Assembly (NCBI RefSeq): GCF_000732605.1
Contig: NZ_JPME01000023.1
Span: 1-64,000 of the forward strand
DNA length: 64,000 nt
Reading direction: 5' to 3'
Source: Lacrimispora celerecrescens
Lineage (GTDB): Bacteria > Bacillota > Clostridia > Lachnospirales > Lachnospiraceae
A program made the position numbers and the translations under genes. The notes below the pieces were generated by a model that made no database searches, was not told where the DNA came from, and saw only the letters and a program-made list of their open reading frames with translations. Within the stretch, counting starts at the first letter, position 1; every line of letters begins with the position of its first letter. This document shows, piece after piece, positions 25,367 to 45,739 of this stretch.

Positions 25367-25395
25367 TTGACACTAAGACAAAAATAGAATACAAT
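25367..25395 (+). promoter_or_regulatory. Predicted promoter of the IclR regulator
   Basis: TTGACA (25367-25372), exactly 17 bp, TACAAT (25390-25395). The operator-like element at 25414 lies 19 bp after the -10 box. Confidence 0.85.
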
Positions 25396-25413
25396 CAATC
25401 CAATTATGAATTT

Positions 25414-25431
25414 AATTCGTATATATAAACT
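25414..25431. promoter_or_regulatory. Predicted IclR operator in front of its own gene
   Basis: AATTCGTATATATAAACT matches 15 of 18 positions of the palindromic element at 26413-26430. It lies just downstream of the expected transcription start and 4 nt before the GGAGG of the iclR-type gene, so binding would block the gene's own transcription (autorepression). This is an inference from the paired sites. Confidence 0.65.
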
Positions 25432-25445
25432 TTCGGAGGTATGAA

Positions 25446-26201
25446 ATGAATCGAACCGTAGAACGTACATTTATGATTTTGCAGTTGATCGCTGACAGGA
25501 AAAGGGGGATAACCTTACAGGAGATTACCAATGAAATGGGGATGGCTAAGAGTAGTGTTTTTGTCATTGTACAGTCATTATTGGAGCTGAACTATATTAC
25601 AACACTCCGTGATAATGATAAGAAATACTGTTTAGGGATAGAGACTTTTTCCTTGGGTATGAAATATGTAGATGATATGAGCCTGATAAAAGAATGTACC
25701 GTAAATCTGCAGCCCATAGCTGAAAAGTATAATAAAACTGCTTTTGTTGCAGTATTAAATGGAACCAAGATCGTATATGTGCATAAATATGTGGCTCAGA
25801 ATGCAAGATTAGCTTCATGCGCCATTGGAACCAGAAAGGATGCCTATGCAACTTCTCTGGGAAAGGCAATTCTTGCATTTTTACCTAAAGAAGAACAGAG
25901 CGCAATTTTGGATAAGATAGATTTTAAGCCATTAACAGACTATACTATTACTTCCAAAGAACAGCTGCTGGAAGAACTAAGAAGAACAAAAGAACGGGGG
26001 TATTCTTTGGATCAACGGGAATTAGAGGACATAACCAGCTGCTGTGGAGCACCAGTTTTTGATTATACAGGGAAAGTGGTAGCCGCTGTTTCTTTATCGG
26101 ATATCTATGATGAAACGCTTGATGATGAGCAGGTTGCTAAAGAACTTAGAGAAGTAGCACTTCATATATCTAAAAATTTAGGATATCATCCCAATCCATG
26201 A
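25446..26201 (+). CDS. IclR-family transcriptional regulator (KdgR-like)
   Basis: A 251-aa regulator: an N-terminal winged helix (about 1-65; TFMILQLIADRKRGITLQEITNEMGMAKSSVFVIVQSLLEL) and an IclR effector domain (about 75-247) with the usual GTRKDAYATSLGKAILAFLP and YSLDQRELEDITSCCGAPVFDYTGKVVAAVSLS segments. IclR/KdgR proteins commonly repress genes for uronate breakdown and respond to KDG-type intermediates. The next operon encodes lyases, KdgF and an SDR, so such an effector is likely. GGAGG precedes the ATG. A matching operator pair supports control of itself and of the operon at 26499. Confidence 0.92.
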   Translation: MNRTVERTFMILQLIADRKRGITLQEITNEMGMAKSSVFVIVQSLLELNYITTLRDNDKKYCLGIETFSLGMKYVDDMSLIKECTVNLQPIAEKYNKTAFVAVLNGTKIVYVHKYVAQNARLASCAIGTRKDAYATSLGKAILAFLPKEEQSAILDKIDFKPLTDYTITSKEQLLEELRRTKERGYSLDQRELEDITSCCGAPVFDYTGKVVAAVSLSDIYDETLDDEQVAKELREVALHISKNLGYHPNP

Positions 26202-26233
26202 TGACTTAACCTTATTATTGATGAATAAATATT

Positions 26234-26300
26234 ATGCGAGAATCAACCCCTTTGTTTCCGAAGATGTAATACGGTACAAAGGGCATTCTCGCATTTTTTA
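26234..26300 (+). terminator. Long terminator after the IclR gene
   Basis: Outer arms ATGCGAGAAT (26234-26243) and ATTCTCGCAT (26285-26294) plus an inner CCCTTTGT/ACAAAGGG pair make a tall stem followed by TTTTTT. Confidence 0.9.
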
Positions 26301-26364: not shown

Positions 26365-26393
26365 TTGACAAGAACTAAAATGAAATGTATAAT
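26365..26393 (+). promoter_or_regulatory. Consensus promoter of the uronate-lyase operon
   Basis: TTGACA (26365-26370), exactly 17 bp, TATAAT (26388-26393): a full sigma-A consensus, as expected for a strong promoter held down by a repressor. Confidence 0.93.
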
Positions 26394-26412: not shown

Positions 26413-26430
26413 AGTTCTTATATATGAACT
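26413..26430. promoter_or_regulatory. Predicted IclR operator of the lyase operon
   Basis: AGTTCTTATATATGAACT is an interrupted palindrome (AGTTC-N-TATATA-N-GAACT) starting 20 bp downstream of the -10 box. A near copy lies at the same place relative to the IclR promoter. Another inverted repeat (AGATCTCTATTAAGAGATCT, from 26442) follows in the leader. Confidence 0.7.
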
Positions 26431-26498
26431 TTTGCGATTAAAGATCTCTATTAAGAGATCTCATTTTATAAAAAATCTTATGAACGAGGTTCTTAATT

Positions 26499-27077
26499 AT
26501 GAACAAGACAAATGAGGTTTTTATATTTCCATATTTGGATTTATTATTTTTCTCCATACTTGCTGCTGTTTCAGAAATTATGAGTTATAAGATGCTGGAA
26601 TTTTGGAATAGCAGCTTCTATTACAGCTTTTCCGTGGTTCTCTGCCTCATATCCATGATTCGCTGGGGAGCAGCCGGAGTTGTAGTGGCCATGATCGGAG
26701 GAATTCCGGGTATACTGTTTTCCCCTATGTCCCTTTGGTCCGGATTTTTATTTTACAGCCTTTCCAATGCATTTATTGGGATTCCTATGATGGTTTACAG
26801 AAGCAGGAACAGAGATGCCATTGCTGAGGGACATGTTTTTCTGCTCCTTTATATTTTTCTTTCTCATTGCAGTCTGTCAGCAGGAAAGGGAATTGCCATA
26901 TTTTTACTAACCGGAGAAACAACAGGAGCTAAGGATTATTTTTGGGCAACATTTTTTACCTTGATGATCAATATCATTGTGTGCAGTGTGCTGCAAATGC
27001 GGAAAGGGTTGATATGTGATATGAGATATTATTTTACTGATATGGAAGGAGAAGGGTATGGAAACGGAAGAAATTAA
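26499..27077 (+). CDS. Unknown integral membrane protein, first gene of lyase operon
   Basis: A 192-aa protein with five to six predicted membrane helices. The start is LDLLFFSILAAVSEIMSYKMLEFWNSSFYYSFSVVLCLISMIRWG, and a central AAGVVVAMIGGIPGILFSP segment is rich in Gly/Pro. The overall pattern (small, very hydrophobic, AxxxGGxPG-type loop) recalls S-components of ECF transporters, but no ECF ATPase is nearby and I cannot assign a family. It overlaps the first permease by 20 bp, so the two are probably co-translated. The start follows ACGAGG. Confidence 0.65.
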   Translation: MNKTNEVFIFPYLDLLFFSILAAVSEIMSYKMLEFWNSSFYYSFSVVLCLISMIRWGAAGVVVAMIGGIPGILFSPMSLWSGFLFYSLSNAFIGIPMMVYRSRNRDAIAEGHVFLLLYIFLSHCSLSAGKGIAIFLLTGETTGAKDYFWATFFTLMINIIVCSVLQMRKGLICDMRYYFTDMEGEGYGNGRN

Positions 27078-28022
27078 AATGCGTGAGCCCCAGACAAAAA
27101 AGATATGGAAAGCTGTGAGGAAGGATTGGCGTTTATATGTACTCCTGCTTCCCCTGGTAATCTGGTTTGCTATGTGGCTTATAAGCCAATGGGAGGGCTG
27201 CTCATTGCGTTTAAACGGTTTGATCCTCAATTTGGGGTCTGGGGAAGTGAATTTAAAGGAATTGACAATTTTATCAACCTTGTTTCCGGAGTCAATAAGG
27301 TTGAGTTTTGGCAGGCGTTCAGAAATACATTTATTATCAGTGCTTACAGCCTGATATTTGGATTCCCTGTACCGATTATACTGGCCTTATTATTTGCTGA
27401 AATAGGAAATGATACGGTGAGGAAGCTTACGCAGACCGCAACCTATCTGCCTCATTTCCTTTCAGAGGTTACAATTACAGGAATTGCCCTCATGCTGGTA
27501 TACAGTGGTGTCCGCTCAACTGGAATTATCGCTTCTCTGCTCCAGCAAATTGGATTGATTGAACCGGGTGTTTCGATCATGCAGAAATCCAATTATTTCA
27601 GGCCCCTCTATATTATGGTAGGGATCTGGAAAGAAAGCGGATATAATTCTATTGTTTATTTTGCAGCTATTATGGGGATTTCCCCTACACTGTATGAGGC
27701 TTTAAAAGTGGATGGGGGCAATAAATTTCAGGAAATCCGCTTTATCACATTTCCGGGTATGGCACCGACTCTGATCATCATGATCATCATGAGGATAGGA
27801 AGTATGCTGACCATTGGCTATGAAAGAGTTTTGCTTTTATACAATGCCAATATTTATGTGACAGCAGATGTGCTCTCCACCTTTGAACAAAGAATAGGTA
27901 TTCTGTCAGGCAACTATGGAATCGGAGCTGCTGTCAGCCTGTTCAATTCCTTGATTGCGTTTGCACTGGTGATCGGTGCCAATACAATCAGCAGAAATAT
28001 ATCAGAAACATCCCTGTGGTAG
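27058..28022 (+). pseudogene. Lpl-type ABC transporter permease 1, broken by a single-base frameshift
   Basis: The N-terminal part (from the ATG at 27058, with AAGGAG before it) reads ...KDWRLYVLLLPLVIWFAMW and then leaves the family sequence. The continuation AYKPMGGLLIAFKRFDPQFGVWGSEF is in the next frame and runs to 28022. One extra G in the GG at 27176-27177 (TGG-GCT-TAT) restores a 321-aa permease of the LplB/UgpA type with an EAA loop (YEALKVDGGNKFQEIRFITFPGM). Without a working copy the importer would fail, so either the strain is defective or this is a sequencing error. No sign of programmed slippage. Confidence 0.9.
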
Positions 28023-28040
28023 ATTAGAAAGGCGGAAACG

Positions 28041-28904
28041 ATGGAGCGCTTAAACAGAAGTGAAAAGATATTTAAGGTGTTTTCCTATACGATGATTATC
28101 ATCTTTGCATTGCTTGCCCTGTATCCGGTTTTGTACGCATTCAGCGTTTCAATCAGCGGAAAGGTAGCATATGAAAGCGGTCAGATTGTACTCCTGCCAA
28201 AGGAAGTGACATTTCAGGCCTATGATATGGTGCTGCACAACAAAGGCTTTTGGATTGCGTATACCAATACCCTGTTCTATACCGTACTTGGTACTGCCTG
28301 GAGTATGGCAATTTCCATTACAGGTGCTTATGCATTGCAAAAAACAAAGCTGATGTTCAGACGGCAATGGAACTTTCTGCTGGTATTTACCATGTGGTTC
28401 AGTGCCGGAATGATTCCTTTGTACCTGAATTATAAGACCATGCACGTGGATAACCGATGGGGAATGATTATAGCCTTCGGCGTGCAGGCATATAACATCA
28501 TTCTTCTCAGAAACTATTTCAGCAGCATACCAAAAGAAATAGAAGAAGCTGCAATCATGGATGGAGCCAATGAGTTTCAGATGCTTGGAAAAGTTTACAT
28601 ACCAATGTCCACTGCCAGCATTGCAACAGTAACCTTATTCTATGCCATTTCAAGATGGAATGGTTATTATTGGTCAAGGATGCTGCTGTCAAACCCCTAT
28701 GAGCAGCCGTTACAGGTATATCTGCGGCAGTTGATTGAAAATTATCAGAAACTATATGATGAGTCACCGGTTAATCTTGCATATTCCGCAGATAGCCTGG
28801 CTTATGCAATTATTATATGTTCGATTATCCCGGTGTTAGTTATTTACCCGTATATTCAGAAGTACTTTGCAAAAGGTGTGAATATGGGGGGAGTCAAAGG
28901 ATAA
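28041..28904 (+). CDS. Lpl-type ABC transporter permease 2 (LplC/YtcP type)
   Basis: A 287-aa permease with six predicted membrane helices and the EAA loop IEEAAIMDGANEFQMLGKVYIPM. The C-terminus YIQKYFAKGVNMGGVKG is diagnostic for the LplC/YtcP branch, which imports complex oligosaccharides such as uronate-containing ones. It lies 18 bp after permease 1 and 36 bp before the binding protein gene. Confidence 0.93.
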   Translation: MERLNRSEKIFKVFSYTMIIIFALLALYPVLYAFSVSISGKVAYESGQIVLLPKEVTFQAYDMVLHNKGFWIAYTNTLFYTVLGTAWSMAISITGAYALQKTKLMFRRQWNFLLVFTMWFSAGMIPLYLNYKTMHVDNRWGMIIAFGVQAYNIILLRNYFSSIPKEIEEAAIMDGANEFQMLGKVYIPMSTASIATVTLFYAISRWNGYYWSRMLLSNPYEQPLQVYLRQLIENYQKLYDESPVNLAYSADSLAYAIIICSIIPVLVIYPYIQKYFAKGVNMGGVKG

Positions 28905-28940
28905 ATGTTTTATTCGCCATAAAGGCAGAAGGAGGATTTT

Positions 28941-31043
28941 ATGAGGAACAAAGTAGCAGGGGGTATCCTGTGTGCTGCGATACTTGCATCGGCATTGACC
29001 GGATGCGGTACTTCCGTTGTGGATCAGGCATCAACCAGGGCAGCAGAAGAAACGCAACAGGAAACCAGTGAGGCAGCAGGTGATAAGACTGATCTAACAG
29101 AGATGGTAGAGCTAAAGTTTAATATTGCCAATGGAAATAAGTCAAGAACCATGACCTATAATCAGGAATCTCCATTGACCCTTCCGGATGGTACTGTTGT
29201 AACAGCCGGTATGCTTAAACCAATGTGGTCTTATATGGAAAAGGAATTAAACAGCAAGTTTTCCGACGTGACGTTACAGGATGTGAAGGCCAGCGATATG
29301 ATTCAGACAGAATCTACATCAAACTTTTCCGGAGCCAATATTTTTGGAGGCGAATCAATTGCAGAACGGCTTATGTTTTATGGAACGGAAGGAAAATTTG
29401 TGAATCTGACCGACATGATGAAAACCGGCTATATGCCTAATTTCATGGAATATTTATCAAAGAATCCTGACGTTAAGACTGCGATTACCGCTTACGACGG
29501 AAATATTTATCATGTGCCTTATATTGCGGAACTGAATCAGATCGCAAGGACCTTTGTTATCCGGGAATCCTGGGTCACCGGACTGCTGGATTCAGAAGGC
29601 GCAGCCTATGATAAGAATCCCTTTGATGTGCATTATAAAGGATTTTATGTGGAAAATAACCGCAGAACAGGGGAAAACGGGGGCACGGTTACTCCCAAAG
29701 AAGGAATCGATATTGTAAAGAAAACCGACCAGGATATTATTGAAATTCAGAATGCACTGGAAGTGAAAAATGGGGAAACCTTAACCAGGGCGTTAATTCA
29801 GTATATTAAAGACAACTACGATTACAGCAGCCCATCGGAATTATTCCTTGGGGAAAAGGCAGCCTATGACATTGATGAAATGATTGCACTGATGCGCTGC
29901 ATTAAAGCCAATCCGGCCTTGCTGACCAAGGGGAAAGCTGATGTTGTATGGCCTCTTTTTGTGAGACAGTCCAACTACCGCGAGGATTTGCTTCGGTTAT
30001 CTACATATTTTGACGGCGTGAAGGTACATGGAGCAGACTCCTATACCGCAAGGTGGTATATTGATGAGAACGGGCAAATCCAGTATTCCTATTCAGAAGA
30101 AGGCGTGTACAATGTCTTACAGTATTTATCCATGATGGAGGCGGAAGGACTGATCTATTCCGACGCTTATGATCTGACTGAAAAGACCAATTACCGATCC
30201 ACCTTATGGGGAACTGATGACGGAGACGCCCCTTCCTTTGGTTTTATGACTTATGATTGGATTGCTTCGTCTACTTCTGAATCCTTAAATCCTGACACGG
30301 TTGTGATCCTGCCTCCGGTTGCCAAGGTGAATGGTGCATGGCAGTATTATCTGGATAACGGAAGGGCCATTAAGCCGGATGGCTGGGCTATTTCTGTAGC
30401 AGGTTCTACGGATGATCAGATTCACAGAGCATGTGCAGTTATGGATTACCTTTTTACAGAGGAAGGAAGCAGATTGCAGAATTATGGCTTACCTATGAAT
30501 CTGGAGGAAGGAAAAGATTATGCAGGACCGGATGGGTTAAAATATCCGTTATTCACCAGCTGGGTATATGAGACCTCAGGCAAAGTGGCAAAAGGAGATC
30601 TGTCTACGTTCTTAAGAGACTGGTTGGGCTGTCTGATCCCCATTGGATACCAGAAAGAAATTGGTTTTGAGTATCAGTATACTTCTGAACGGGGATTTGA
30701 AGGCTGGGCGTTGCTTCAAAACTCCACGACTAACTTTGCAACTTATGCAGGAAAAGGAGTAAGCGGGGATAATCCAAATTATTATAAAATGGTTCCGCCG
30801 GTCTTTTCCCTGACTTCCAGACAGAAAGAAACGATTTCAGATACCACATCCCTTGATACAGAAGATATTGTAGAATTCATGTTTAATATCATCCGCTATC
30901 AGGCAAAAGGCAATGCGCCTCAGGGGGCGGTAGTAGCAAAAAGCTATGAAGAGTATGCGGCAGAATTTAAGAAACGGGGACTTGATATTTATGAAGAAAC
31001 TTATCAGGCCGCTTATGATGTTATGAAAATGGATAAACAGTAG
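28941..31043 (+). CDS. Large oligosaccharide-binding lipoprotein of the Lpl-type importer
   Basis: A 700-aa extracellular binding protein, larger than the 430-550 aa usual in this class. The signal peptide ends at lipobox LTGC (MRNKVAGGILCAAILASALTGC), followed by a Thr/Glu/Ala linker. The mature part has binding-protein features such as IVRESW-type loops (TFVIRESWVTGLLDSEG), KPDGWAISVAGSTDDQIHRACAVMDYLFTEEGSR and repeated aromatic clusters. The extra length suggests a long oligosaccharide ligand (inference). GGAGG precedes the ATG. A GC-rich hairpin follows the gene. Confidence 0.9.
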   Translation: MRNKVAGGILCAAILASALTGCGTSVVDQASTRAAEETQQETSEAAGDKTDLTEMVELKFNIANGNKSRTMTYNQESPLTLPDGTVVTAGMLKPMWSYMEKELNSKFSDVTLQDVKASDMIQTESTSNFSGANIFGGESIAERLMFYGTEGKFVNLTDMMKTGYMPNFMEYLSKNPDVKTAITAYDGNIYHVPYIAELNQIARTFVIRESWVTGLLDSEGAAYDKNPFDVHYKGFYVENNRRTGENGGTVTPKEGIDIVKKTDQDIIEIQNALEVKNGETLTRALIQYIKDNYDYSSPSELFLGEKAAYDIDEMIALMRCIKANPALLTKGKADVVWPLFVRQSNYREDLLRLSTYFDGVKVHGADSYTARWYIDENGQIQYSYSEEGVYNVLQYLSMMEAEGLIYSDAYDLTEKTNYRSTLWGTDDGDAPSFGFMTYDWIASSTSESLNPDTVVILPPVAKVNGAWQYYLDNGRAIKPDGWAISVAGSTDDQIHRACAVMDYLFTEEGSRLQNYGLPMNLEEGKDYAGPDGLKYPLFTSWVYETSGKVAKGDLSTFLRDWLGCLIPIGYQKEIGFEYQYTSERGFEGWALLQNSTTNFATYAGKGVSGDNPNYYKMVPPVFSLTSRQKETISDTTSLDTEDIVEFMFNIIRYQAKGNAPQGAVVAKSYEEYAAEFKKRGLDIYEETYQAAYDVMKMDKQ

Positions 31044-31052
31044 TTAAACCGG

Positions 31053-31073
31053 GGGAGGAGGCTTTCTCCTCCC
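31053..31073 (+). terminator. Intercistronic hairpin after the binding protein gene
   Basis: GGGAGGAG (31053-31060), loop GCTTT, CTCCTCCC (31066-31073), then TTATAAAAAGG. It lies between the binding protein stop and the next start, and probably raises binding protein mRNA relative to the downstream genes. Confidence 0.6.
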
Positions 31074-31093
31074 TTATAAAAAGGTGGGAGCTG

Positions 31094-31645
31094 ATGATGC
31101 AGAAGTATTTTAAAACTCAAAAGTTAGCAGCAGGAATATATACCGGGATCGTTATCATTGTATTCTTCTATACTCTTTGCTTCATGACGGAGTATAAAGA
31201 TTTGTTCGGGTTGAAATTAACACAGAATGATCAGATTTCTTTTTTCCATGATTACATTCTTCAGATATTTAATAAACAGATTTTTACCTTTGCGGTATTT
31301 GGAATTCTGGTGATTTTGCTTTCCTTTCTGCTGGAGATCTTCGGTAAAATACCGGATAAATTTGCTTTAATCATAATGGAGCTGTCACTTCTTCTTTGCT
31401 GCGCATGTTCCGCCTATGCCTTGTTTAATCTTCAGGCCATAGAAAGCTATTATGCCGGACTGGATTTCCAGTATTTGCGGTTAGAAAGTGCAAGTGATTA
31501 TAAGCCTCATTTTGCCACGTTCCGAATTGGATTGGGAATCTACATTTCCCATATTCTCTGCTGTGCTTTTTATATCGTTGCAATTGGCAGAAGCCATTTT
31601 AAATTCCAGAAGAATCAGAAAAAGAGGAGCACAAGGAATGGATAA
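31094..31645 (+). CDS. Unknown four-helix membrane protein A of the lyase operon
   Basis: A 183-aa protein with four predicted membrane helices (about 12-30, 60-82, 88-110 and 143-165), an extracytoplasmic loop between helices 1 and 2 and a Lys/Arg-rich cytoplasmic tail (RSHFKFQKNQKKRSTRNG). No family is recognised. GGTGGGAG lies before two adjacent ATG codons (31094 and 31097). The end overlaps the next start by 8 bp, indicating coupled translation with membrane protein B. Confidence 0.65.
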   Translation: MMQKYFKTQKLAAGIYTGIVIIVFFYTLCFMTEYKDLFGLKLTQNDQISFFHDYILQIFNKQIFTFAVFGILVILLSFLLEIFGKIPDKFALIIMELSLLLCCACSAYALFNLQAIESYYAGLDFQYLRLESASDYKPHFATFRIGLGIYISHILCCAFYIVAIGRSHFKFQKNQKKRSTRNG

Positions 31646-32087
31646 TCGGTTGCTTAAAAAAGAAAAAAAGGCATACGTGTCATTATATAAAAAGGATGTG
31701 CTGCCATATTCACTGATACTATGTGCCATATTGGCTGAACTCATCTATGATATCTTGATTTTGGATGTGATGCCTGTAAGTTACCTGATGGGAGTTACGG
31801 TAATGATTAATATTGTGATATTGTTTGTACTTTTCACCTGTGCCGTAAAAGTCAATATCTATCATAAAACTTGGGCGGCCATTGCTGTTTTTCTTGGTAT
31901 TTACATGCTGGTAAGGATGTCTGTGCTGGTTCCCCTTGTATTAAAGCCCTATGCCAGGCATACGGAGATCATGGCTGCAAATTTTTTGGGAGGGCTCTTG
32001 CTTCTTACGGCCGGCTTCATCAGTTTGAAGCATACCGACAGAAGACAAAGGCTTCAGGAACAGTTAAAGCAGACAGATGCCAGCTAG
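31638..32087 (+). CDS. Unknown four-helix membrane protein B of the lyase operon
   Basis: A 149-aa protein with four predicted membrane helices and charged ends (MDNRLLKKEKKAYVSLYKK at the front, DRRQRLQEQLKQTDAS at the back). The ATG at 31638 is used because GGAGCACAAGG precedes it, and the earlier start at 31488 lies deep inside protein A. The pair A/B has matched size and topology, and the two could form a heteromer (inference). No family is recognised. Confidence 0.65.
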   Translation: MDNRLLKKEKKAYVSLYKKDVLPYSLILCAILAELIYDILILDVMPVSYLMGVTVMINIVILFVLFTCAVKVNIYHKTWAAIAVFLGIYMLVRMSVLVPLVLKPYARHTEIMAANFLGGLLLLTAGFISLKHTDRRQRLQEQLKQTDAS

Positions 32088-32102
32088 GATGAGGTGAAAA
32101 AT

Positions 32103-33206
32103 ATGGGAAAACTCCTGTTTAAAAATATAAGTAAATCATATGCAAATGGATTTTGTGCGGTTAATAACTTCAATTTAGAGATTCAGGATGGAGAATTTAT
32201 TGTTCTAGTGGGGCCGTCAGGCTGTGGAAAGTCAACCATCCTGCGCATGATTGCCGGGCTGGAAAAGATATCTGACGGAGATCTGATTCTGGATGAAAAG
32301 GTAATCAATAAATGTCCGCCGGTAGAACGGGATATTGCTGTAGTATTCCAGGATTATGCGCTGTATGGCAATATGTCGGTTTATGATAACGTTGGGATGA
32401 GCATGCGTGTCAGACATGAAAAAGACACGGTTATTTATGATAAGGTGAAGGAAGCTTCCGGTATTTTAGGAATCGGAAGCCTGTTAAAGCGTTTGCCGGG
32501 ACAATTATCCGGAGGACAGAAACAGAGAGTGGCTCTGGCCAGATCCGTAGTAAGAAAGCCAAAGGTATTTCTTATGGATGAGCCGCTTTCAAACCTGGAT
32601 GCAAAGCTGAGGACCAGTACAAGGGCTGAAATAGTAAAGCTCCAGAGGGAATTAAAGGTTACGACTGTTTATGTTACTCATGATCAGACAGAGGCCATGA
32701 CAATGGCAGACCGTATGGTAGTATTAAAGGATGGAATAATCCAGCAGGCAGGAACCCCAAATGAAATTTATTATGAACCCTGCAATTTATTTGTAGCCGG
32801 TTTTATTGGAGCGCCTCAGATGAATTTTATAGAAGGAAGGGTGGTGGGCAGTCGGTTTGTGTTTGGCTCTCATGCACTTTACCTTCCGAAGAAAATCGCG
32901 GACCCCTTAAAACAATATTCTGACAGGGAACTCATATTGGGAATCAGGCCGGAGCAATTTTCCATTTCCAATGGGGAAGACATCAATGTGATTGAAGGAG
33001 AACTGGAAAACAAAGAGTTTTTAGGTAATTGTTATATTTTATATGTAAGGATCGGAGAATCGGTCCTGGCATGTCAGATCGAAAGCATGGAGGACAGCTT
33101 TGACGAGCAGGTCAATATCCACTTTGGTATGGAACATATCTATTTTTTTGATAAGGAGACAACAGAATTGCTGATGCATGCAAAGGTGGGAGAGAATGAT
33201 GAGTAA
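32103..33206 (+). CDS. Sugar ABC transporter ATPase (MalK/UgpC/MsmK type)
   Basis: A 367-aa ATPase: Walker A GPSGCGKST, Q loop VFQDYALY, signature LSGGQKQRVA, Walker B VFLMDEPLSNLDAK, and the switch His in YVTHDQTEAM. The C-terminal part (about 240-365) is the TOBE regulatory domain of the MalK group, including LGIRPEQF. It powers CUT1 importers. Being the only such ATPase in the window, it may serve both the Lpl-type importer and the transporter at 3347-6549. The ATG at 32103 has GAGGTG upstream; a GTG at 32094 is less likely. Confidence 0.95.
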   Translation: MGKLLFKNISKSYANGFCAVNNFNLEIQDGEFIVLVGPSGCGKSTILRMIAGLEKISDGDLILDEKVINKCPPVERDIAVVFQDYALYGNMSVYDNVGMSMRVRHEKDTVIYDKVKEASGILGIGSLLKRLPGQLSGGQKQRVALARSVVRKPKVFLMDEPLSNLDAKLRTSTRAEIVKLQRELKVTTVYVTHDQTEAMTMADRMVVLKDGIIQQAGTPNEIYYEPCNLFVAGFIGAPQMNFIEGRVVGSRFVFGSHALYLPKKIADPLKQYSDRELILGIRPEQFSISNGEDINVIEGELENKEFLGNCYILYVRIGESVLACQIESMEDSFDEQVNIHFGMEHIYFFDKETTELLMHAKVGENDE

Positions 33207-33600: not shown

Positions 33601-33607
33601 TGGTATC

Positions 33608-34120: not shown

Positions 34121-34124
34121 AGGC

Positions 34125-36101
34125 ATGAGCAATCTTGTATTTATTGGTGATATAGGGCCTTACAAAGGACAGATTAGTGGCGTGAGAAAAAAGCAGTATC
34201 AAAGGCTGCTTCAGCAGGCCGATCGGTATGAGGCGTATCAATTGCCTGCACACCATCCAAAAGAGAGTACCACATATATGGGGGTAGCAATTATGAATCT
34301 TTCTCTTGCCTATTGCCTGAGCGGGGAGGATAAGTATCTTTCCCAGGCAAAGCGGTTCATTGGGGTGGTTTTGTCCTATGAGCAATGGGGGAATGCCCAT
34401 TTAGTGAATGTGGATTTATCAGCTTCGTGGATCTTATTTGGGTTATCCTTGGGATACGACTGGTTGAAGCCGTTTTTAAGGGAAGAAGAAAAAGAGAAAA
34501 TTCTGGCTAAGATCAGACATCACGCAGATATTATGTACCAGTATAAATTGGACACATACGGCCATGGCTGGTCAACCAGCTATTATCAGAACCATAACTG
34601 GATCAACATGACAGGTCTGGCAGCGGCAGGATATGCGCTTTCAGAGACTTATGACAAAGCCGGCCAATATACAGAGGAAGCAAAAAAGAATTTTGGCAGA
34701 GTGTTTTCTCTCCTTGCAGATGACGGTTCAAATTATGAAGGTGTCCCCTACTGGAGATACGGAGGAATGTGGCTGTTTGTTTATGCCCATCTGCTTAAAG
34801 TACAGGAAGGTATAGATTATTTTCAGACAAGCAATTATCTGAAGAATACTTTTTATTACCGCTTATATCAATCCTGCGGCGATTTTGAGCAACAGATGAA
34901 TTTTGGAGACAGTCATGACCGCCACAGCGGACATGCCCCCTGTGTCTATTATAAGGCGGCTGCCGAGTATGGGGATGGCTTTGCTCAGACCTTTGCCAAT
35001 CTTGTTCTTGATGAATTCCTCATGGCGGAAGCGGAAAAGAGTAAAATCAAGCCGGGCATTTTACCGGAGGCCGCATTTGAATTTCTGTGGTATGATCCTC
35101 AAGTGTCAGAGAAGCCCCTTTCTCTTCTTCCAAAAGTCAGGTACTTTGAAGATTTGGGTTTGCTGTCAATGAGAGAAGACTGGAGCAGAAGAAGCAAGGT
35201 TCTGACAATAAAATGCGGCTGTCCTGGGGGCAGAAAACAGTGGATGAATGGCTGGGACTTATACCGCAGGGAAGGCTTGGATTGTCTTTCCCTATCCCAC
35301 CATCATTCAGATAATCTTTCTTATATTTTTGCAAGGGGAAGTGAATATCTGACCTGTGAAGACGGATATAACCGGAACCTTATGCCGGATAACCACAATG
35401 TAATTCTGGTAGACAATCAATACACGGATGCGGAAAATGTAAATGATATTTATATGAGCAGTGCAGGGAAAAGGCTGGAAAAGGATCCCTTTTATCCCAT
35501 TGAAGAAAGATACCGGGGAGATGTGGTTTACTTAGAGCTTGATGATTCCATGGTTATTTACAAAGGCGAAACCTCCGGTATATATCCGGAAGCCCTTGGC
35601 ATGAAAGAAGTAAGCCGGCTGTTATTTACCGATCAGTTATTCTTTTTCCTGTTCGTTGACGTGTGTGTGTCTGACAGGGATCATATTTACCGTATTATTT
35701 CAAATACGGATATGCCGGCACAAAAGCAGAACGATCATACCTACTATTATCCAATGAAGACCGGAGGTATTACATATACTGTTTTTTCAGATCAGGAAAT
35801 CTGTTCGGATCAGTACACCCAGGAAATTGTCAGTGTGATGACATCCCAGGAGCCGGATAAGCTTTGCAGATCTTTCATCAATACTTTGTCATTTCAATCA
35901 GCAGCTCCCACAAAAAAACAAACGTTGATTGAATGCTTTACCTTTGATGGAATGAATACGGAGATTACCTTTAAAGGTGAGAACCTTCATGTCAGACACG
36001 GAGACAAAGACTATCAGTTGATTTTTGGAGATGGAATGACTGTAAATATCATAGAGGTCTGCAGCAACAGCGGAGAAAGAAAAAGTTATCGGATTCCGTA
36101 A
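34125..36101 (+). CDS. Heparinase II/III-fold polysaccharide lyase 1 (cytoplasmic)
   Basis: A 658-aa two-domain protein: an N-terminal alpha/alpha toroid (about 40-330, with NHNWINMTGLAAAGYALSE and YEGVPYWRYGGMWLFVYAHLL) and a C-terminal beta-sandwich (about 340-650) with LSLSHHHSDNLSYIFARGSEYLTCEDGY and DNHNVILVDNQYT. These are hallmarks of the Hepar_II_III/DUF4962 group, which includes PL15, PL17 and PL21-type beta-eliminating lyases; the Tyr and His residues in these motifs are candidate catalytic residues. No signal peptide is present, so it should act on imported oligosaccharides. The exact family and substrate cannot be settled from sequence alone. Confidence 0.85.
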   Translation: MSNLVFIGDIGPYKGQISGVRKKQYQRLLQQADRYEAYQLPAHHPKESTTYMGVAIMNLSLAYCLSGEDKYLSQAKRFIGVVLSYEQWGNAHLVNVDLSASWILFGLSLGYDWLKPFLREEEKEKILAKIRHHADIMYQYKLDTYGHGWSTSYYQNHNWINMTGLAAAGYALSETYDKAGQYTEEAKKNFGRVFSLLADDGSNYEGVPYWRYGGMWLFVYAHLLKVQEGIDYFQTSNYLKNTFYYRLYQSCGDFEQQMNFGDSHDRHSGHAPCVYYKAAAEYGDGFAQTFANLVLDEFLMAEAEKSKIKPGILPEAAFEFLWYDPQVSEKPLSLLPKVRYFEDLGLLSMREDWSRRSKVLTIKCGCPGGRKQWMNGWDLYRREGLDCLSLSHHHSDNLSYIFARGSEYLTCEDGYNRNLMPDNHNVILVDNQYTDAENVNDIYMSSAGKRLEKDPFYPIEERYRGDVVYLELDDSMVIYKGETSGIYPEALGMKEVSRLLFTDQLFFFLFVDVCVSDRDHIYRIISNTDMPAQKQNDHTYYYPMKTGGITYTVFSDQEICSDQYTQEIVSVMTSQEPDKLCRSFINTLSFQSAAPTKKQTLIECFTFDGMNTEITFKGENLHVRHGDKDYQLIFGDGMTVNIIEVCSNSGERKSYRIP

Positions 36102-36126
36102 AGCAGGGAAAAAGTGAGGTATGGGA

Positions 36127-38031
36127 ATGAAGTATGTAAATGACAGATTTTATGAACGGATGAATGGAGAGGACAGGAACCGGGAGCTGATACAGGAAAT
36201 GAAAAAAGAGGTAGATGAGTTTCTTCCTTATTTTTCAGACTCTCCTGACCGGTTAAGCCGTTGGGGGCACTACTATTTTTGTGACGATGACGGAGGACGG
36301 CTGATTTTTGATATAAACTCCCCTGACAGGCATCGGTGTGAAGTGTGCGAAAAGGTGTATGAAAGTGAGATTTTAGATGGCGTTTGGGTTTATTTTTACC
36401 GGAATAAAGCGGTGATCATGGCGCTGGTATCTGCATTTGTTTATAAAGCCACAAAGGAAAAGAAGTATTTTGATTATTCCGTGTCAGTAATGGAATATTA
36501 CGCCCGTCATTATAAGGAGTTTCTGCTGCATAACAAAGAAAATCTGACCGCAGATTCCTATGACGCAATGCCCTGGGGATGCGGAAGAATGATGCCCCAG
36601 GGGCTGAATGAATCCATAGTTGCCATACGTTTTGTCCAGACTATTGAGATATTAAGAGATGAATTAAGTCCGGAATTTCTTGATCTGGTGTATCACAATA
36701 TGTTCCGGGAAATGTATTTCCTGCTGGCACCTCAGGCCACCAGAATTCATAATATCAGCTGTTGGAATCTGTCTGCTATCGGTGTTATGGGGCTGGCATT
36801 CCAGGATCAGGAGATGATTGATTTTGCATTCAACAGTGAGTTCAATGTAAGAAAACAGCTTGAAACAGGAGTGACGAAAGACTTTTTCTGGTATGAAGGA
36901 TCCATTCATTATAATTTCTTTTTGCTGGAAGGCATTACGTATCTGTTTTTGTTCAGTAAGGTTTACGGTTATGATTTTGGAGAAACCGGGACTGAAATTT
37001 TGCAGAATATGTTTGTACAGGCATACAATTATGCATTTGACAATCAATTTCTGCCCAATCCCAACGATGGCTGGCCCAATCTGAATCTACGCACATTTAG
37101 TTATATTTACCATACGGCTGCCAGGGCTATGGGAGAGGACAGCCCGATCGGCAATCTTGTGAAGAACATTGAAGCGTCCGATTCCGTTCGTACGCCTCTG
37201 CCCTTGTCAGAGCCATATTATTGCAAAAACAGCGTTTGTCTGGAACAGCTGCTGTTTAACATTGACTTTGATTATGAAAAATTTACCTCGATTAAGCAGC
37301 AGTCAAATAACTTTCCTGAATCCAATTATGTAATTTTGAGAAATGCCAAATGGAATGGGTTTATGAAATATGGATTAAATGGAAAATCACACGCCCATCC
37401 GGACATCATGAATGTGGAACTGATGTATGGGAATCACAGAATATCCAGGGACTTGTCAAATGCAGGGTACCGGTCCCGCCTGTGCAATGAATGGCACCGG
37501 AAAACCCTGTCTCATAATACTGTCTGCTGGAATGGAATGGATATTACCTCAGTAAGTCCTGGAGAATGCCTGTATTATGATAAAAATAAGGTGACTGCAG
37601 CTGCAAGAAATGTCTATGAAGGTATTAACTATACCAGGACGATACAGATCTCAGAGAATACCTTTACTGATGATTTTTGGGTGGAAAGCGGAATGAATGG
37701 AATTTTTGATTATGTGTTCCATTTGGAATCGGCTCTTAGCCTGGAATATGATCTGGATCTGGAAGATGGGAACCTGGGATTTGAAAAAAATGGCTATCAG
37801 CATATCCTTGAAACCAAACGGGTAAAAACAAATGAAAACCATGTTGTGTTGCGAGCCTGGGCAGAAGACGTAATGTGGAGTATCTGGATCGATCTGACTG
37901 GGGGACACCAGTTATACCTCTTAAAAACATTGGATAATCCGGTAAATCAAAGGAGAAATACAATTTTACTTAGGAATACAGGAACATCTCCCCATTATCA
38001 TTTAAAAATAATGGCGGAGGCAAAACAATAA
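36127..38031 (+). CDS. Heparinase II/III-fold polysaccharide lyase 2 (cytoplasmic)
   Basis: A 634-aa alpha/alpha-toroid plus beta-sandwich lyase. Key segments are HNISCWNLSAIGVMGLAF (Asn/His of the active cleft), FFWYEGSIHYNFFLLEGI (Tyr/His), KSHAHPDIMNVELMYGNHRISRDLSNAGY and EWHRKTLSHNTVCWNG. The last two are the strongest heparinase II/III signatures, seen in oligo-alginate and heparin lyases. No signal peptide. The ATG at 36127 is preferred to 36121 because GTGAGGT ends directly before 36121. It pairs with lyase 1 (25 bp apart) but is a distinct subfamily, so the two probably cut different linkages. Confidence 0.87.
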   Translation: MKYVNDRFYERMNGEDRNRELIQEMKKEVDEFLPYFSDSPDRLSRWGHYYFCDDDGGRLIFDINSPDRHRCEVCEKVYESEILDGVWVYFYRNKAVIMALVSAFVYKATKEKKYFDYSVSVMEYYARHYKEFLLHNKENLTADSYDAMPWGCGRMMPQGLNESIVAIRFVQTIEILRDELSPEFLDLVYHNMFREMYFLLAPQATRIHNISCWNLSAIGVMGLAFQDQEMIDFAFNSEFNVRKQLETGVTKDFFWYEGSIHYNFFLLEGITYLFLFSKVYGYDFGETGTEILQNMFVQAYNYAFDNQFLPNPNDGWPNLNLRTFSYIYHTAARAMGEDSPIGNLVKNIEASDSVRTPLPLSEPYYCKNSVCLEQLLFNIDFDYEKFTSIKQQSNNFPESNYVILRNAKWNGFMKYGLNGKSHAHPDIMNVELMYGNHRISRDLSNAGYRSRLCNEWHRKTLSHNTVCWNGMDITSVSPGECLYYDKNKVTAAARNVYEGINYTRTIQISENTFTDDFWVESGMNGIFDYVFHLESALSLEYDLDLEDGNLGFEKNGYQHILETKRVKTNENHVVLRAWAEDVMWSIWIDLTGGHQLYLLKTLDNPVNQRRNTILLRNTGTSPHYHLKIMAEAKQ

Positions 38032-38057
38032 AGAAAGCTAAGAAAAGGAGATCAAAA

Positions 38058-38792
38058 ATGAGAGCAGTAATCACAGGAGGAACAAGCGGAATTGGCTTAA
38101 GTGCCGCCATAGAGCTGGGGAAGGCTGGTTATGATATTATTATCACCGGAATTAGTCAGGAGGATGGGAAATCGGCACAGGAAACTCTGAAAAGCCATGG
38201 GATTAACAGCGAATTTATTTATGCAGATTCGATGAATGAGGAAGACGTCAATCGCTGCTTTGAAAAAATAACCCAGACTTATGATTCCTTGGATGTGTTA
38301 GTGAACAATGTGGGAGGTCTTGGCGGAAGGCAGCGTTTTGAAGAGATGGAGACTTCTTTTATGAGAAAGGTTATGGCACTTAACTTTGACAGCGCATTTT
38401 TTGCAAGCCGAGCAGCCATTCCTTTACTGAAAAAGGGCAATCACCCATCCATCATTAACTATAGTACCATTGCAGTTACCTCCGGCGGAGGCCCGGGCGC
38501 GGGAATCTATGCAGCAAGCAAGGCAGCAATTGAAGGACTGACACGGGCACTGGCAAAAGACCTTGTGGATTATGGAATCCGTGTAAATGCCGTTTCCCCT
38601 GGTACCATAGATACGGCATTTCATTCTGCAACAAAACGTGAGATCCTGGAGTCCTGGAAGGATGGGATTCTTATGAAACGGCTTGGAGAACCATCGGAGG
38701 TAGCAGCAGTGATCGGATTCCTGGTATCTGAAAAAGCATCCTTTATTACAGGAGAGATTATACAGATCAATGGCGGTCAGGTGTTTATCTGA
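38058..38792 (+). CDS. Short-chain dehydrogenase/reductase, likely uronate (DEH/DKI-type) reductase
   Basis: A 244-aa classical SDR: cofactor loop TGGTSGIG (residues 6-13), NNVGG, catalytic Ser/Thr in INYSTIAV (about 136-137), Tyr151 and Lys155 in YAASK, and the C-terminal EVAAVIGFLVSEKASFITGEIIQINGG. In uronate pathways an SDR reduces the 4-deoxy-5-keto sugar (DEH) to KDG, or acts on DKI as KduD does. Sitting between two lyases and KdgF, that role is the best inference here; the sequence alone does not give the substrate. GGAG precedes the ATG. Confidence 0.88.
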   Translation: MRAVITGGTSGIGLSAAIELGKAGYDIIITGISQEDGKSAQETLKSHGINSEFIYADSMNEEDVNRCFEKITQTYDSLDVLVNNVGGLGGRQRFEEMETSFMRKVMALNFDSAFFASRAAIPLLKKGNHPSIINYSTIAVTSGGGPGAGIYAASKAAIEGLTRALAKDLVDYGIRVNAVSPGTIDTAFHSATKREILESWKDGILMKRLGEPSEVAAVIGFLVSEKASFITGEIIQINGGQVFI

Positions 38793-38815
38793 TGATATAG
38801 AAAGGGAGCGGCGAT

Positions 38816-39145
38816 ATGGTTTTAAAATATGAAGATATAATTCCCGGGAATCCAGAGCCGGGAATCACCAGGCGTATTCTTGCAAGAGGCGGGAGCCTGA
38901 TGGGGGTTGAGGCCTCTTTTATAAAGGGAGCAGTGGGAAGTGTACATAAGCATCCTCATGAGCAGGTCAGCTATATAGTATCCGGGTCCTTCCAGTATGA
39001 AGCAGATGGTGTTAAATATATTCTAAAGGCAGGCGACAGCTATTATGTAGAACCAGAATCACTGCATGGCGCAACTGCATTGGAAGATTCTATAATCCTG
39101 GATATTTTTACACCCCAGCGGGAGGACTTTATAGGGGATGTATAA
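38816..39145 (+). CDS. kdgF: KdgF: converts unsaturated monouronate to linear ketosugar
   Basis: A 109-aa single-domain cupin that matches KdgF closely. It has metal ligands in VHKHPHEQVSYIVSG (His46, His48) and LHGATALEDS (His84), and the C-terminal LDIFTPQREDFIGD signature. KdgF opens 4,5-unsaturated uronates released by exo-lyases to give the 5-keto-4-deoxy form. It is the strongest functional clue of the operon, since it shows that lyase products reach the monouronate stage. It is the last gene of the operon, followed by a terminator. Confidence 0.92.
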   Translation: MVLKYEDIIPGNPEPGITRRILARGGSLMGVEASFIKGAVGSVHKHPHEQVSYIVSGSFQYEADGVKYILKAGDSYYVEPESLHGATALEDSIILDIFTPQREDFIGDV

Positions 39146-39346: not shown

Positions 39347-40135
39347 ATGTATACAAAACAAGATCTAAAGCAGAATTTGAAAGAAATGGGAATTATGCCC
39401 CATGACACTTTGCTCCTGCACTCATCCATGAAAGCAATCGGAGAGGTTGAAGGCGGGGCGGATACCGTACTTGATGCTTTTATGGAATATATGTCTGACG
39501 GTCTGCTTATACTGCCCACTCATACATGGGCTGCCATGTCAGAATACCACAATGTATATGATCCACGAATAGAGCCGGCTTGCGTAGGAATTTTACCCAA
39601 TCTTTTTATGAGACGGAAAGGAGTACTTCGATCCTTACATCCAACCCATAGTGTAGCCGTGTACGGAAAGGATAGTAAGGCATTTATTGAGGGAGAAGAA
39701 AACCGAACAACGCCCTGCCCGCCAGGTGGCTGTTATGATCGTTTAAAAAATAGAAATGGTAAAATCCTGCTTCTTGGGGTTGGTCACGAGCGGAATACTT
39801 TTATACATTGCGTGGAAGAACATTTAGATGTACCGGAGCGCCTGACCAAGGAACCCACTTATTTTAAGATAGTCATGCCAGGCAATCAGATTAAGCCCTC
39901 CTTTATGCACTGTCATGAAAATCCTGTTACGGATCATATTTCTGATAATTACACAAAACTGGAACAGGCCTTCTACGACAGGAATGCAGCAGTTAAGAGC
40001 AGTTTTGGCGATGCCGCCTGCATTCTGTGCGATGCGAATGCAGTATATGAGGTGACAAAAGATGTGTTGTCCCACCAGATTAATTGTATCATAGAATTAG
40101 AAACAATTCCTAAGGAGTGGTGGCTGAACGTATAA
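39347..40135 (+). CDS. AAC(3)-family N-acetyltransferase
   Basis: A 262-aa protein of the Antibiotic_NAT (AAC(3)/YokD) family: LLLHSSMKAIGEVEGGADTVLDAF, LLILPTHTWA, GILPNLFMRRKGVLRSLHPTHSVAVYG (acetyl-CoA and catalytic His region) and ILLLGVGHERNTFIHCVEE. Known members acetylate the 3-amino group of 2-deoxystreptamine antibiotics. Many chromosomal relatives have other amine substrates, and its position between two lyase transcription units hints at an amino-sugar role. No resistance phenotype should be assumed. It has its own start region with a weak promoter (TAGACT, 17 bp, CATAAT at 39262-39290). Confidence 0.85.
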   Translation: MYTKQDLKQNLKEMGIMPHDTLLLHSSMKAIGEVEGGADTVLDAFMEYMSDGLLILPTHTWAAMSEYHNVYDPRIEPACVGILPNLFMRRKGVLRSLHPTHSVAVYGKDSKAFIEGEENRTTPCPPGGCYDRLKNRNGKILLLGVGHERNTFIHCVEEHLDVPERLTKEPTYFKIVMPGNQIKPSFMHCHENPVTDHISDNYTKLEQAFYDRNAAVKSSFGDAACILCDANAVYEVTKDVLSHQINCIIELETIPKEWWLNV

Positions 40136-40198
40136 GATTTCACCCAATTCTATAGTTTTGTAAATCTGAAAAAAGAATATAAATCTGGAAATCGTTTA

Positions 40199-40227
40199 TT
40201 TCATTTATTCATTTATTCCATTATAAT
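40199..40227 (+). promoter_or_regulatory. Possible promoter of lyase 3
   Basis: TTTCAT (40199-40204), 17 bp, TATAAT (40222-40227), 43 bp upstream of the start codon. The spacer carries a TTTATTC-like motif repeated three times (40196-40219). No copy of the IclR operator is seen here. Confidence 0.45.
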
Positions 40228-40269
40228 TATAGTAACTAAAAAAATCTATTACGGAAGAGGTGGAACCAG

Positions 40270-42288
40270 ATGTCAAAGGAACAGTATTTTGAAAACAAGA
40301 ACAACTATATAGCCTTTGAGGACAAGGCGTGGGTCACAGATTATTGCCAAAGGAACTGGCCGGAGGAAGTGAATCATATCCTTCGCATTGCAGATGATGC
40401 AGTGGAGCATACGTTTTTGTTTGATTTGCGGTGGGATATGGAGAGAACCTATGAGCCGGTTCACTTTGATCAGGAAGTGGATTGGTACTACATGCCGGGA
40501 GATGACCCGGAGTTTATCTTTCAGTTCAACCGCCACCAGTTCTTTATATGCCTGGGACAGGCATATGCCATGACTGGTGATGAAAAGTATGCAAAGACTT
40601 TTGCAGAGCTTCTGGATTCCTGGATAAAAAACAGCCCTCTGACAGAGGAAACCAAGCAAACCACATGGAGGAGCATTGAGGCTGGTATCCGGGCTGAAAC
40701 CTGGGTAAAGGCCATGGGTTATTTTAAGGACAGCCCCTCCGTAGATGACGGGCTTGTGAAGGCATATATGGATTGTCTCACCGTTCATGCGGAATACCTT
40801 ATGACAACCTATAAGCATTTCCAGATTAAGAGCAACTGGGGAGTCATTGAGAACCGGGGCCTTATGGAGATTGCACTGGCCCTTCCTATCAGTGATCGGA
40901 CAAGGGAATATCTGGATGCAGCGCTTTTGCGCCTTGGTGAGGAGATCGAGGTGCAGATTGCAGACGATGGAGTACACTGGGAGCAATCCCCTATGTATCA
41001 TAATGAGGTATTTCACTGTTATCTGGAAGTGATGCGGCTTGCCAGGCGTTACGGAATTAAACTTTCGAAGAAAAGAATGGAGAAAGTACGACAGATGGCC
41101 TATGCAAATATTGCATGGAAAAAGCCAAACCATTGCCAGCCCATGCAGGGAGACAGTGATGAGACCGATATCAGGGACTTACTGACTCAAAGCGCCTGGC
41201 TGTTTGCAGACCCGGTATTGAAATTCTGCGCTTATGACAAAATGGATTTTGACGGAGCCTGGGACTTCTTAAAAGAAGGCATCGAGGGCTACGGAAAACT
41301 TAATGCACAAGAACCAGATTTTTTAGACAGGGTTATGGAAAGCACCGGTAATCTTTTTGTCCGGTCCAGCTGGGAAGAAAACGCAGATTATTTCCACTTC
41401 CGCTGCGGATTCCTGGGAGGAGGCCACGGCCATTCCGACAAGCTGCATGTAGATCTTGTGATCAATGGAGAAGATATACTCATGGACACAGGGCGTTACC
41501 ATTATGTGCCTGGTGAAACAAGAACCTGGCTTAAAAGTGCCCTGGGACATAATGTTCCATTAATAGACAATCAAGACTATTTAAAATGCCGGGATGCCTG
41601 GGGAGTGGATCAAATGTCTGCTGCGTATTTTGGCGGTTATAAGAAAAAGGCTGGGTATCGCTATATCCAGGGAAGTCACGGCGGGTATTTAAATGGAAAT
41701 GAGGGAAACGTTTGGATCACCAGAAAAGTGATAGCAATTGATACGGATCTTTATTTAATTGCTGATGAGTTTTTCTCCGGGGAAAAGCACACATACCAGC
41801 AGCTTTTCCATTTTAATAATCAGGGAAAGGTTTCCCGTTCCGGACATACCGTGCGTTATTCCGGCAGCAGGACAGACGGGGAATTGACAGTTCTTACGGA
41901 AGGTTGTGAGATGAAGCTGTCCGATGGCTGGATCTCCAGAAACTATAACCAAATGGAAACAGGAAGGCAGCTTTTAACCGGTAAAGAAGCAGATGGCTTT
42001 TCTTCCATTATTACTGTTGTATCAGGCGGGGAAAAGAGTAAATACAAATCCCCGGAACTTTCTCTTCTTCCTGTATTCGGAGCGGATCCATCGGTTCCAT
42101 TAGATCCTTCTGATGCGGAAGCGGTATCTATTAACTGGAAGGGAAAGAACTATGTGGTTATTTTAGCCCACCGTGATATCGGGGATTCCTGTGACCTGCT
42201 TACAGCTGGAGGCGTGAAGGGACTTGGAACGGTAATTGTGTTTGATACGGAAAAGCAGAAGGTGGGAGGTACAGTCCTTCACTGGTAG
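40270..42288 (+). CDS. Heparinase II/III-fold polysaccharide lyase 3 (cytoplasmic)
   Basis: A 672-aa lyase of the heparinase II/III superfamily. The N-terminal toroid has FQIKSNWGVIENRGLMEIALAL (Asn in the active cleft) and HWEQSPMYHNEVFHCYLEVM (Tyr/His). The beta-sandwich begins with FRCGFLGGGHGHSDKLHVDLVINGEDILMDTGRYHY, the most canonical of the three lyases here, and KSALGHNVPLID. This pattern is shared by PL12 and PL21-type heparan lyases and related oligo-lyases. No signal peptide. It is a separate unit with its own promoter and terminator, so it can be regulated apart from lyases 1 and 2. Confidence 0.88.
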   Translation: MSKEQYFENKNNYIAFEDKAWVTDYCQRNWPEEVNHILRIADDAVEHTFLFDLRWDMERTYEPVHFDQEVDWYYMPGDDPEFIFQFNRHQFFICLGQAYAMTGDEKYAKTFAELLDSWIKNSPLTEETKQTTWRSIEAGIRAETWVKAMGYFKDSPSVDDGLVKAYMDCLTVHAEYLMTTYKHFQIKSNWGVIENRGLMEIALALPISDRTREYLDAALLRLGEEIEVQIADDGVHWEQSPMYHNEVFHCYLEVMRLARRYGIKLSKKRMEKVRQMAYANIAWKKPNHCQPMQGDSDETDIRDLLTQSAWLFADPVLKFCAYDKMDFDGAWDFLKEGIEGYGKLNAQEPDFLDRVMESTGNLFVRSSWEENADYFHFRCGFLGGGHGHSDKLHVDLVINGEDILMDTGRYHYVPGETRTWLKSALGHNVPLIDNQDYLKCRDAWGVDQMSAAYFGGYKKKAGYRYIQGSHGGYLNGNEGNVWITRKVIAIDTDLYLIADEFFSGEKHTYQQLFHFNNQGKVSRSGHTVRYSGSRTDGELTVLTEGCEMKLSDGWISRNYNQMETGRQLLTGKEADGFSSIITVVSGGEKSKYKSPELSLLPVFGADPSVPLDPSDAEAVSINWKGKNYVVILAHRDIGDSCDLLTAGGVKGLGTVIVFDTEKQKVGGTVLHW

Positions 42289-42311
42289 AAAATCGAAATG
42301 AGTATATAAAG

Positions 42312-42350
42312 AAAGCAGCGTTTATCCAAAAAGGAAAAACGCTGCTTTTT
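42312..42350 (+). terminator. Terminator of lyase 3
   Basis: AAAGCAGCGTTT (42312-42323) and AAACGCTGCTTT (42337-42348) are perfect arms followed by a T-run. It may also serve the convergent hydrolase gene. Confidence 0.9.
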
Positions 42351-45734: not shown

Positions 45735-45739
45735 AAAAC

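Follow-up and report, generated by a model that had tools for sequence, protein, structure and literature searches.

Uptake of uronate oligosaccharides ahead of their cleavage is known from several bacteria. In the pit system of Sphingomonas sp. A1, an ATP-binding cassette (ABC) transporter brings alginate in to lyases of the cytoplasm, and an ABC transporter is also said to supply oligomers to alginate-using Firmicutes (passages of PMC8286568). According to part of PMC5730181, galacturonic acid oligomers enter Bacillus subtilis through related importers, for which MsmX is most probably the common ATPase. Here we describe a locus of Lacrimispora celerecrescens that can be compared with both. 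It lies in a window of 64,000 nt (contig NZ_JPME01000023.1; coordinates are positions within this window) of a 5.04 Mb genome. A same-strand run of genes (26499–39145, +) encodes an Lpl-type importer, five small membrane proteins (TM1–TM5), two heparinase-fold lyases (Ly1 and Ly2), a short-chain dehydrogenase/reductase (SDR), and KdgF, and so holds together all that a first-pass annotation of the window had joined (importer, two lyases, SDR, and KdgF). We read the locus as encoding an oligouronide importer of variant type, equipped with accessory membrane proteins, that would feed a cytoplasmic two-lyase pathway. With a probability of roughly 0.7, it is an inducible operon for scavenging oligouronides by import followed by cytoplasmic cleavage.

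The locus is like the A1 pit system (AlgQ, AlgM1M2SS) in placing ABC import before cytoplasmic cleavage to monouronate, in having a PL15-like enzyme (PL, polysaccharide lyase family), and in an SDR related to the A1 reductase of 4-deoxy-L-erythro-5-hexoseulose uronate (DEH). It differs in having an Lpl-type importer in a Gram-positive bacterium, five small membrane proteins, a PL17-like second lyase, and KdgF within the operon. The Sphingomonas-type pit system also includes a cell-surface superchannel, and a Gram-positive bacterium has no outer membrane. The B. subtilis systems YtcQP-YteP and YesOPQ are likewise Lpl-type importers, for galacturonate oligomers, but they share MsmX, whereas here there are a dedicated ATPase, TM1–TM5, and heparinase-fold lyases. 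The import-first scheme, which the first-pass annotation set apart from the usual extracellular one, agrees with the genes present and with their conservation across 14 genomes but is no departure from these known schemes. We found no description of this lyase pair or of the accessory membrane proteins; among the matches listed in the open-licence literature, no title concerned this operon or such proteins.

In the proposed scheme, the solute-binding lipoprotein (SBP) would capture short uronate chains outside the cell. Import would be the task of the permeases LplB and LplC, with a dedicated MalK-type ATPase as the motor and TM2–TM5, usually also TM1, as companions. In the cytoplasm, Ly1 and Ly2 would cleave the chains by beta-elimination, in a probably exolytic mode, down to 4,5-unsaturated monouronate. 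KdgF would open the ring, the SDR would reduce the product to 2-keto-3-deoxygluconate (KDG), and KDG would be taken onward by enzymes encoded elsewhere. An IclR repressor acting on two operators (O1 and O2) would control the operon. We infer from the genes the direction of transport, the enzyme activities and exo mode, the role of TM1–TM5, repressor binding, the substrate, and, from strand and spacing, a single transcript from TM1 to KdgF.

All parts of an Lpl-type (CUT1) importer are encoded in the run: an LplB-type permease (27105–28022, +; BPD_transp_1, 1.8e-9), an LplC-type permease (28041–28904, +; BPD_transp_1, 1.3e-11), a MalK/UgpC-type ATPase (32094–33206, +; ABC_tran, 6.9e-32), and the SBP (28941–31043, +). 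The SBP has no Pfam match and is assigned by its place, its lipoprotein start (a hydrophobic N-terminus followed by LTGC), and its conservation with the permeases. The ATPase reaches 417.9 bits against the UgpC model, under the cut-off of 432, and as judged from the gene set, the importer has a MalK/UgpC-type ATPase of its own. By the usual view, a type I sugar importer requires a binding protein and a pair each of membrane and ATPase domains, and the part of PMC7658222 on this architecture gives no further membrane subunits. Here, five small membrane proteins, absent from the first-pass annotation, are encoded among the importer genes: TM1 (26499–27077), TM2 (31094–31645), TM3 (31638–32087), TM4 (33184–33600), and TM5 (33608–34120), all on the + strand. 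TM1, TM2, TM3, and TM5 have no Pfam match at E up to 0.1, and TM4 has one weak match under the cut-off (DUF981, 0.055). Across 62 members of the five TM alignments, Pfam matches are weak and scattered, the commonest being DUF4131 in 4 of 14 TM4 proteins (best 0.015). The dN/dS ratio is 0.12–0.22 for TM1–TM5 in two comparisons, beside 0.09–0.17 for Ly1/Ly2 and 0.003–0.016 for LplC, and purifying selection is seen on all 12 genes compared.

TM5 is found in 12 of 295 genomes of the order and in 1 of 398 of the phylum, the latter being the window's own. In all 11 other TM5 loci, the ATPase gene and an open reading frame (ORF) in the TM4 place lie upstream (TM4 identified by profile in five and by place and alignment in six). 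TM3 is found in 10 of the 11 (L066 begins inside the ATPase gene), TM2 in eight (four by profile, four by place and alignment; not resolved in L068), and TM1 in seven, with three loci cut before TM1 and L061 lacking room for it. In the synteny comparison, overlapping unlabelled ORFs were thinned by size. Across other families of the order, TM2–TM5 keep the same places either with the Ly1-Ly2 pair or with glycoside hydrolases of families GH28 and GH88. Six TM5 genomes lack Ly1/Ly2, and in four of these (L064, L065, L066, and L068) a GH88 gene follows, accompanied in three by GH28; L067 and L069 end too soon. Because these hydrolases follow in place of the lyases, the TM module, as its gene neighborhoods read, changes enzyme partners, and the readable partners all concern uronates. 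We tentatively suggest, at somewhat below an even chance, that TM2–TM5 belong, as dedicated subunits, to a class of oligouronide ABC importer not yet described, where they perhaps widen or shield the path for long, highly charged chains, and that this class serves both lyase and hydrolase pathways and has moved between distant lineages. In the Acholeplasmatales metagenome-assembled genome (MAG) with locus L021, TM3 and TM4 (2–880 and 1959–3026 of that locus, +) have long charged N-terminal extensions. The L. celerecrescens genome has another Lpl-type importer (L106, C8:6001–26000; 2238–10721, −), whose neighbors are an Alginate_lyase-family protein (PF05426, 8.4e-71) and one resembling GH88, both without a signal-peptide-like start.

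The first-pass annotation had reported all three heparinase-fold lyases of the region (Ly1, Ly2, and a third, Ly3) to lack signal peptides. A 19-residue hydropathy scan over the first 60 residues, used here instead of SignalP, agrees: no signal-peptide-like stretch is seen in Ly1, Ly2, or Ly3 (maxima of 0.42, −0.50, and 0.32), while the SBP reaches 1.96 in the same scan, with LTGC after the peak. Thirteen enzymes of other loci stay at or below 0.89, except Ly1 of L021 at 1.51, which was read from an internal start. The hydropathy result thus favors cytoplasmic lyases, short of proof.

The three lyases are also as different from one another as had been claimed, the best mutual BLASTP match having an E of only 0.003. 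Ly1 (34125–36101, +) is a PL15/PL35/dermatan-sulfate-epimerase-type lyase or epimerase with DUF4962 (2.8e-16) as its sole Pfam match. It aligns with PL15 and PL35 lyases and with dermatan-sulfate epimerase over the toroid and sheet domains, including the catalytic His, Tyr, and His, but the similarity is low and its activity is predicted from sequence. Counted along the profile alignment, the PL15 catalytic residues His311, Tyr365, and His531 (given in passages of PMC12088678, as are the PL17 and PL12 residues below) correspond to H157, Y209, and H392, which are invariant in 10 of 10 Ly1 proteins. Ly2 (36121–38031, +) resembles PL17 in both sequence and fold. Its profile matched eight distinct solved sequences, of which seven are PL17-type alginate lyases (best 8.1e-19) and one is weak (0.0034), and the top ten Foldseek matches are all PL17 (E of 1.3e-17, on a weak structure model). 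As in PL17 oligoalginate lyases such as Alg17c, whose catalytic residues are Tyr258, His413, Asn201, and His200 (PMC12088678), Ly2 retains His200, Asn201, and His413 as H210, N211, and H424. It departs from them by an Ile where PL17 has His202, by a His in the Tyr258 column followed directly by the Tyr, and by an identity of 14–15% in the fold alignment. Part of PMC8286568 states that PL17 Tyr450 is not conserved and that His202 may act as base where it is missing; Ly2 seemingly lacks equivalents of both. Two more PL17-like proteins are encoded in the same genome (L025, 10506–12512, −; L026, 9557–11554, −), with about 23% identity to Ly2 and no signal-peptide-like starts.

The genes after the lyases name the likely product. 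The KdgF cupin (38816–39145, +) aligns over almost its full length to solved KdgF (5fpz, 5fpx, and 5fq0 at 1.5e-22 to 5.6e-22; 7zyb at 1.1e-27), and ring opening is predicted from this similarity. The SDR (38058–38792, +) is a probable DEH reductase, although it is about equally near to the DEH reductase 4tkl (A1-R', 2.4e-41) and to FabG (2p68, 1.2e-41). A route through 4,5-unsaturated monouronate, as the first-pass annotation proposed, is consistent with KdgF, with the gene content, and with conservation in 14 genomes. For later steps, the genome has one KDPG-aldolase-family place, and in G194 a UxuA gene lies between those of the SDR and KdgF. Alginate use with a DEH reductase and KDG kinase is described for Defluviitalea in part of PMC4818487, and KduI/DhuI gene clusters are surveyed in part of PMC12838403.

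Ly1 and Ly2 occur with this importer, in the same gene order, in 14 genomes: six Lacrimispora, G194, Clostridium MCC353, the Acholeplasmatales MAG with L021, G247, G347, G392, G399, and G405. Loci L018 and L071 are counted as one genome (G205), as are L020, L022, and L074 (G215); the loci of G215 and L021 are cut by contig ends. Within the genus, 6 of 25 Lacrimispora genomes have the locus, the window's own included. Close matches to Ly2 are found in Lacrimispora defluvii (90% identity) and a Lacrimispora MAG (89–92%). In a family sample of 200 genomes, six match Ly2 at 1e-20 (own included), and identities of at least 70% are confined to the own genome and G194. In a midpoint-rooted Ly2 tree in which some long branches are flagged elsewhere, the Acholeplasmatales protein groups with those of Lacrimispora, MCC353, and G194 at 100/99 support, which points to transfer between distant lineages.

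Candidate regulatory features lie upstream of TM1. The gene of an IclR-family regulator (25446–26201, +; IclR_C, 2.5e-40; HTH_IclR, 6.7e-11) is the first of the region and is also found in L070, L072, L073, L023, L021, and L059–L063; its product is a probable repressor of the operon. The first-pass annotation started the locus at 25367; this position coincides with the −35 box of a promoter-like sequence 5' of the IclR gene. The operon's own promoter is at 26365–26393 (+; TTGACA-17-TATAAT, matching the consensus at 12 of 12 positions) and could be aligned in five other loci. Two palindromes on the + strand lie 3' of it, 75 bp apart: O1 (GTTCTTATATATGAAC, 26414–26429) and O2 (GTTCTTAATTATGAAC, 26489–26504), the latter overlapping the TM1 start. 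All eight loci of the group formed by Lacrimispora, G194, and MCC353 have sites like both, with at most two mismatches to GTTCWTAWWTAWGAAC; the spacing is much larger in L023. The 18-base form of the palindrome has two matches in the window versus 0.07 in shuffles. Exact O1 occurs once in the genome; at up to two mismatches there are 11 places, O1 and O2 included, and since a reversed control pattern gives nearly as many (10), the weaker sites carry no weight. O1 is likely to be an operator and is treated as a candidate. A hairpin with a short T-rich tail is present in the operon leader (26442–26461, +) and in four other Lacrimispora leaders.

Several observations count against an inducible operon for import and cytoplasmic cleavage. 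The palindromes are in none of the five upstream regions examined of f22/f24 loci. The LplB gene is apparently frameshifted in the window genome. Both AlphaFold2 models are poor (mean pLDDT of 61.7 and 50.2), and active sites are not readable from them. In the Ly2 profile alignment, His263 occupies the PL17 Tyr258 column and Ile212 the place of His202; H263, the adjoining Y264, and I212 are invariant in 9 of 9 Ly2 proteins. We considered and rejected loss of the catalytic tyrosine, since Y264 follows a conserved Glu by the same interval (Glu+5) as the tyrosine of PL12; Y264 is therefore probably the catalytic residue. A separate point speaks against a strict link of the lyase pair with TM2–TM5: of 295 genomes, apparently the sample used for TM5, 12 have Ly2, six of them with no TM5 match at 1e-5, and L102 and L103 have Ly1, Ly2, and the SDR beside an ordinary SBP-LplB-LplC set.

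This point bears on the strongest alternative, that TM1–TM5 stand outside the importer and have another co-expressed membrane function, such as envelope adjustment, which we hold to be a real possibility if short of evens. Because the lyase pair adjoins plain importers in L102 and L103, the accessory membrane proteins are dispensable for the pair as such, and the idea that the pair always goes with TM2–TM5 was rejected. The absence of TM1 from L061 also favors a separate function. On the other hand, the arrangement of TM2–TM5 about the ATPase gene is the same whichever of the two enzyme sets accompanies it, which speaks for a part in import. Among other loci, LplC runs straight into Ly1 in L100, a 139-aa ORF 3' of KdgF in L101 has a weak TM5 score (15 bits, 8.6e-4), and L104 and L105 have no importer of this kind within the stretch examined.

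Two further alternatives concern what is cut. One holds that Ly1 is a cytoplasmic uronyl C5-epimerase preparing residues for Ly2, so that the locus would encode one lyase and one epimerase. Among solved structures, human dermatan-sulfate epimerase is the best profile relative of Ly1 (5.8e-25), ahead of a PL35 chondroitinase (9.9e-15) and a PL15 oligoalginate lyase (1.2e-13), and Ly1 thus has relatives in the fold that score above PL15 in this search. We nevertheless regard an epimerase as unlikely: the same triad serves PL15 lyases, and exolytic heparinases occur among DUF4962 enzymes, as described in part of PMC7904915. The other holds that a glycosaminoglycan-type chain containing amino sugars is taken up as oligosaccharides, and that its unsaturated disaccharides would be split by a GH88 enzyme encoded elsewhere. 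The PL35 and PL12 relatives of Ly1 and Ly3, the 11 GH88-family places in the genome, and a GH88-like gene 3' of the operon in L019, slightly under the Pfam cut-off (25.4 vs. 26.6 bits), are in keeping with such a ligand. But the core gene set as annotated lacks GH88 in all 14 genomes, Ly2 is PL17-like, and the L021 operon continues with an Alginate_lyase-family gene (8494–9657, +; PF05426, 3e-47), a hint at a homopolyuronide ligand, leaving a glycosaminoglycan with a small share of the probability. Since a distant Ly2 relative in L105 adjoins an alpha-L-rhamnosidase (7048–11029, −), homopolyuronides may not be the only substrates of the wider lyase group.

It is also improbable that the window strain has a decaying, non-functional copy, since the remaining genes are open and under purifying selection, and the LplB defect (N-terminal part in another frame from ~27058, frame change near 27178), although unmatched in all 12 other genomes that carry the gene (320–321 aa, no frame change), has company in the same window that suggests a sequencing error. 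There, V-ATPase subunit I is seemingly split into 15018–15833 and 15647–16945 (−), one ORF matching V_ATPase_I positions 75–422 of 815 and the other none, and a sequencing error would fairly explain both split genes. This second gene belongs to a V-type ATPase operon (9824–18008, −) that, with an F-type ATP synthase operon (43752–50039, +), flanks the uronate operon; main subunits were assigned by Pfam and others by reading.

The region continues 3' of KdgF with an Antibiotic_NAT-fold protein (39347–40135, +; PF02522, 2.7e-60), which scores under all AAC(3) cut-offs, then Ly3 (40270–42288, +), and on the opposite strand an alpha/beta hydrolase gene. From 25446, the full order is IclR, TM1, LplB, LplC, SBP, TM2, TM3, ATPase, TM4, TM5, Ly1, Ly2, SDR, KdgF, Antibiotic_NAT-fold protein, and Ly3. 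Ly3 is a PL12-like lyase (Hepar_II_III_N, 1.4e-48) that matches PL12 at 8.1e-28 and retains Asn240, Tyr294, and His424 (PMC12088678) as N189, Y243, and H386; unlike PL12 heparinase III, it falls far under the HepC equivalog cut-offs (126.2 vs. 700 bits). The third lyase of the first-pass annotation is present at the stated place in the order but is not in the conserved unit. Within the stretches fetched, the operon is followed by Ly3 in two of the 14 genomes (window and L070) and by the Antibiotic_NAT gene in three (these and L073), and no palindrome precedes either gene in the window, L070, or L073. We consequently rejected three lyases as one unit, count two, and regard Ly3 and the Antibiotic_NAT protein as a local addition. 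Because promoter- and terminator-like sites in the KdgF–Ly3 interval are no commoner than in shuffles, there may be read-through from the operon into Ly3.

Relative to the first-pass annotation, the operon has fewer core enzymes and more transport parts. It is ordinary in principle, and the point of real interest is TM2–TM5. Its two lyase groups, whose probable product can be read from the operon, have no more than distant relatives among the solved enzymes. An operon that keeps four extra membrane proteins while swapping its enzymes hints at extra importer parts, perhaps for long acidic oligosaccharides.

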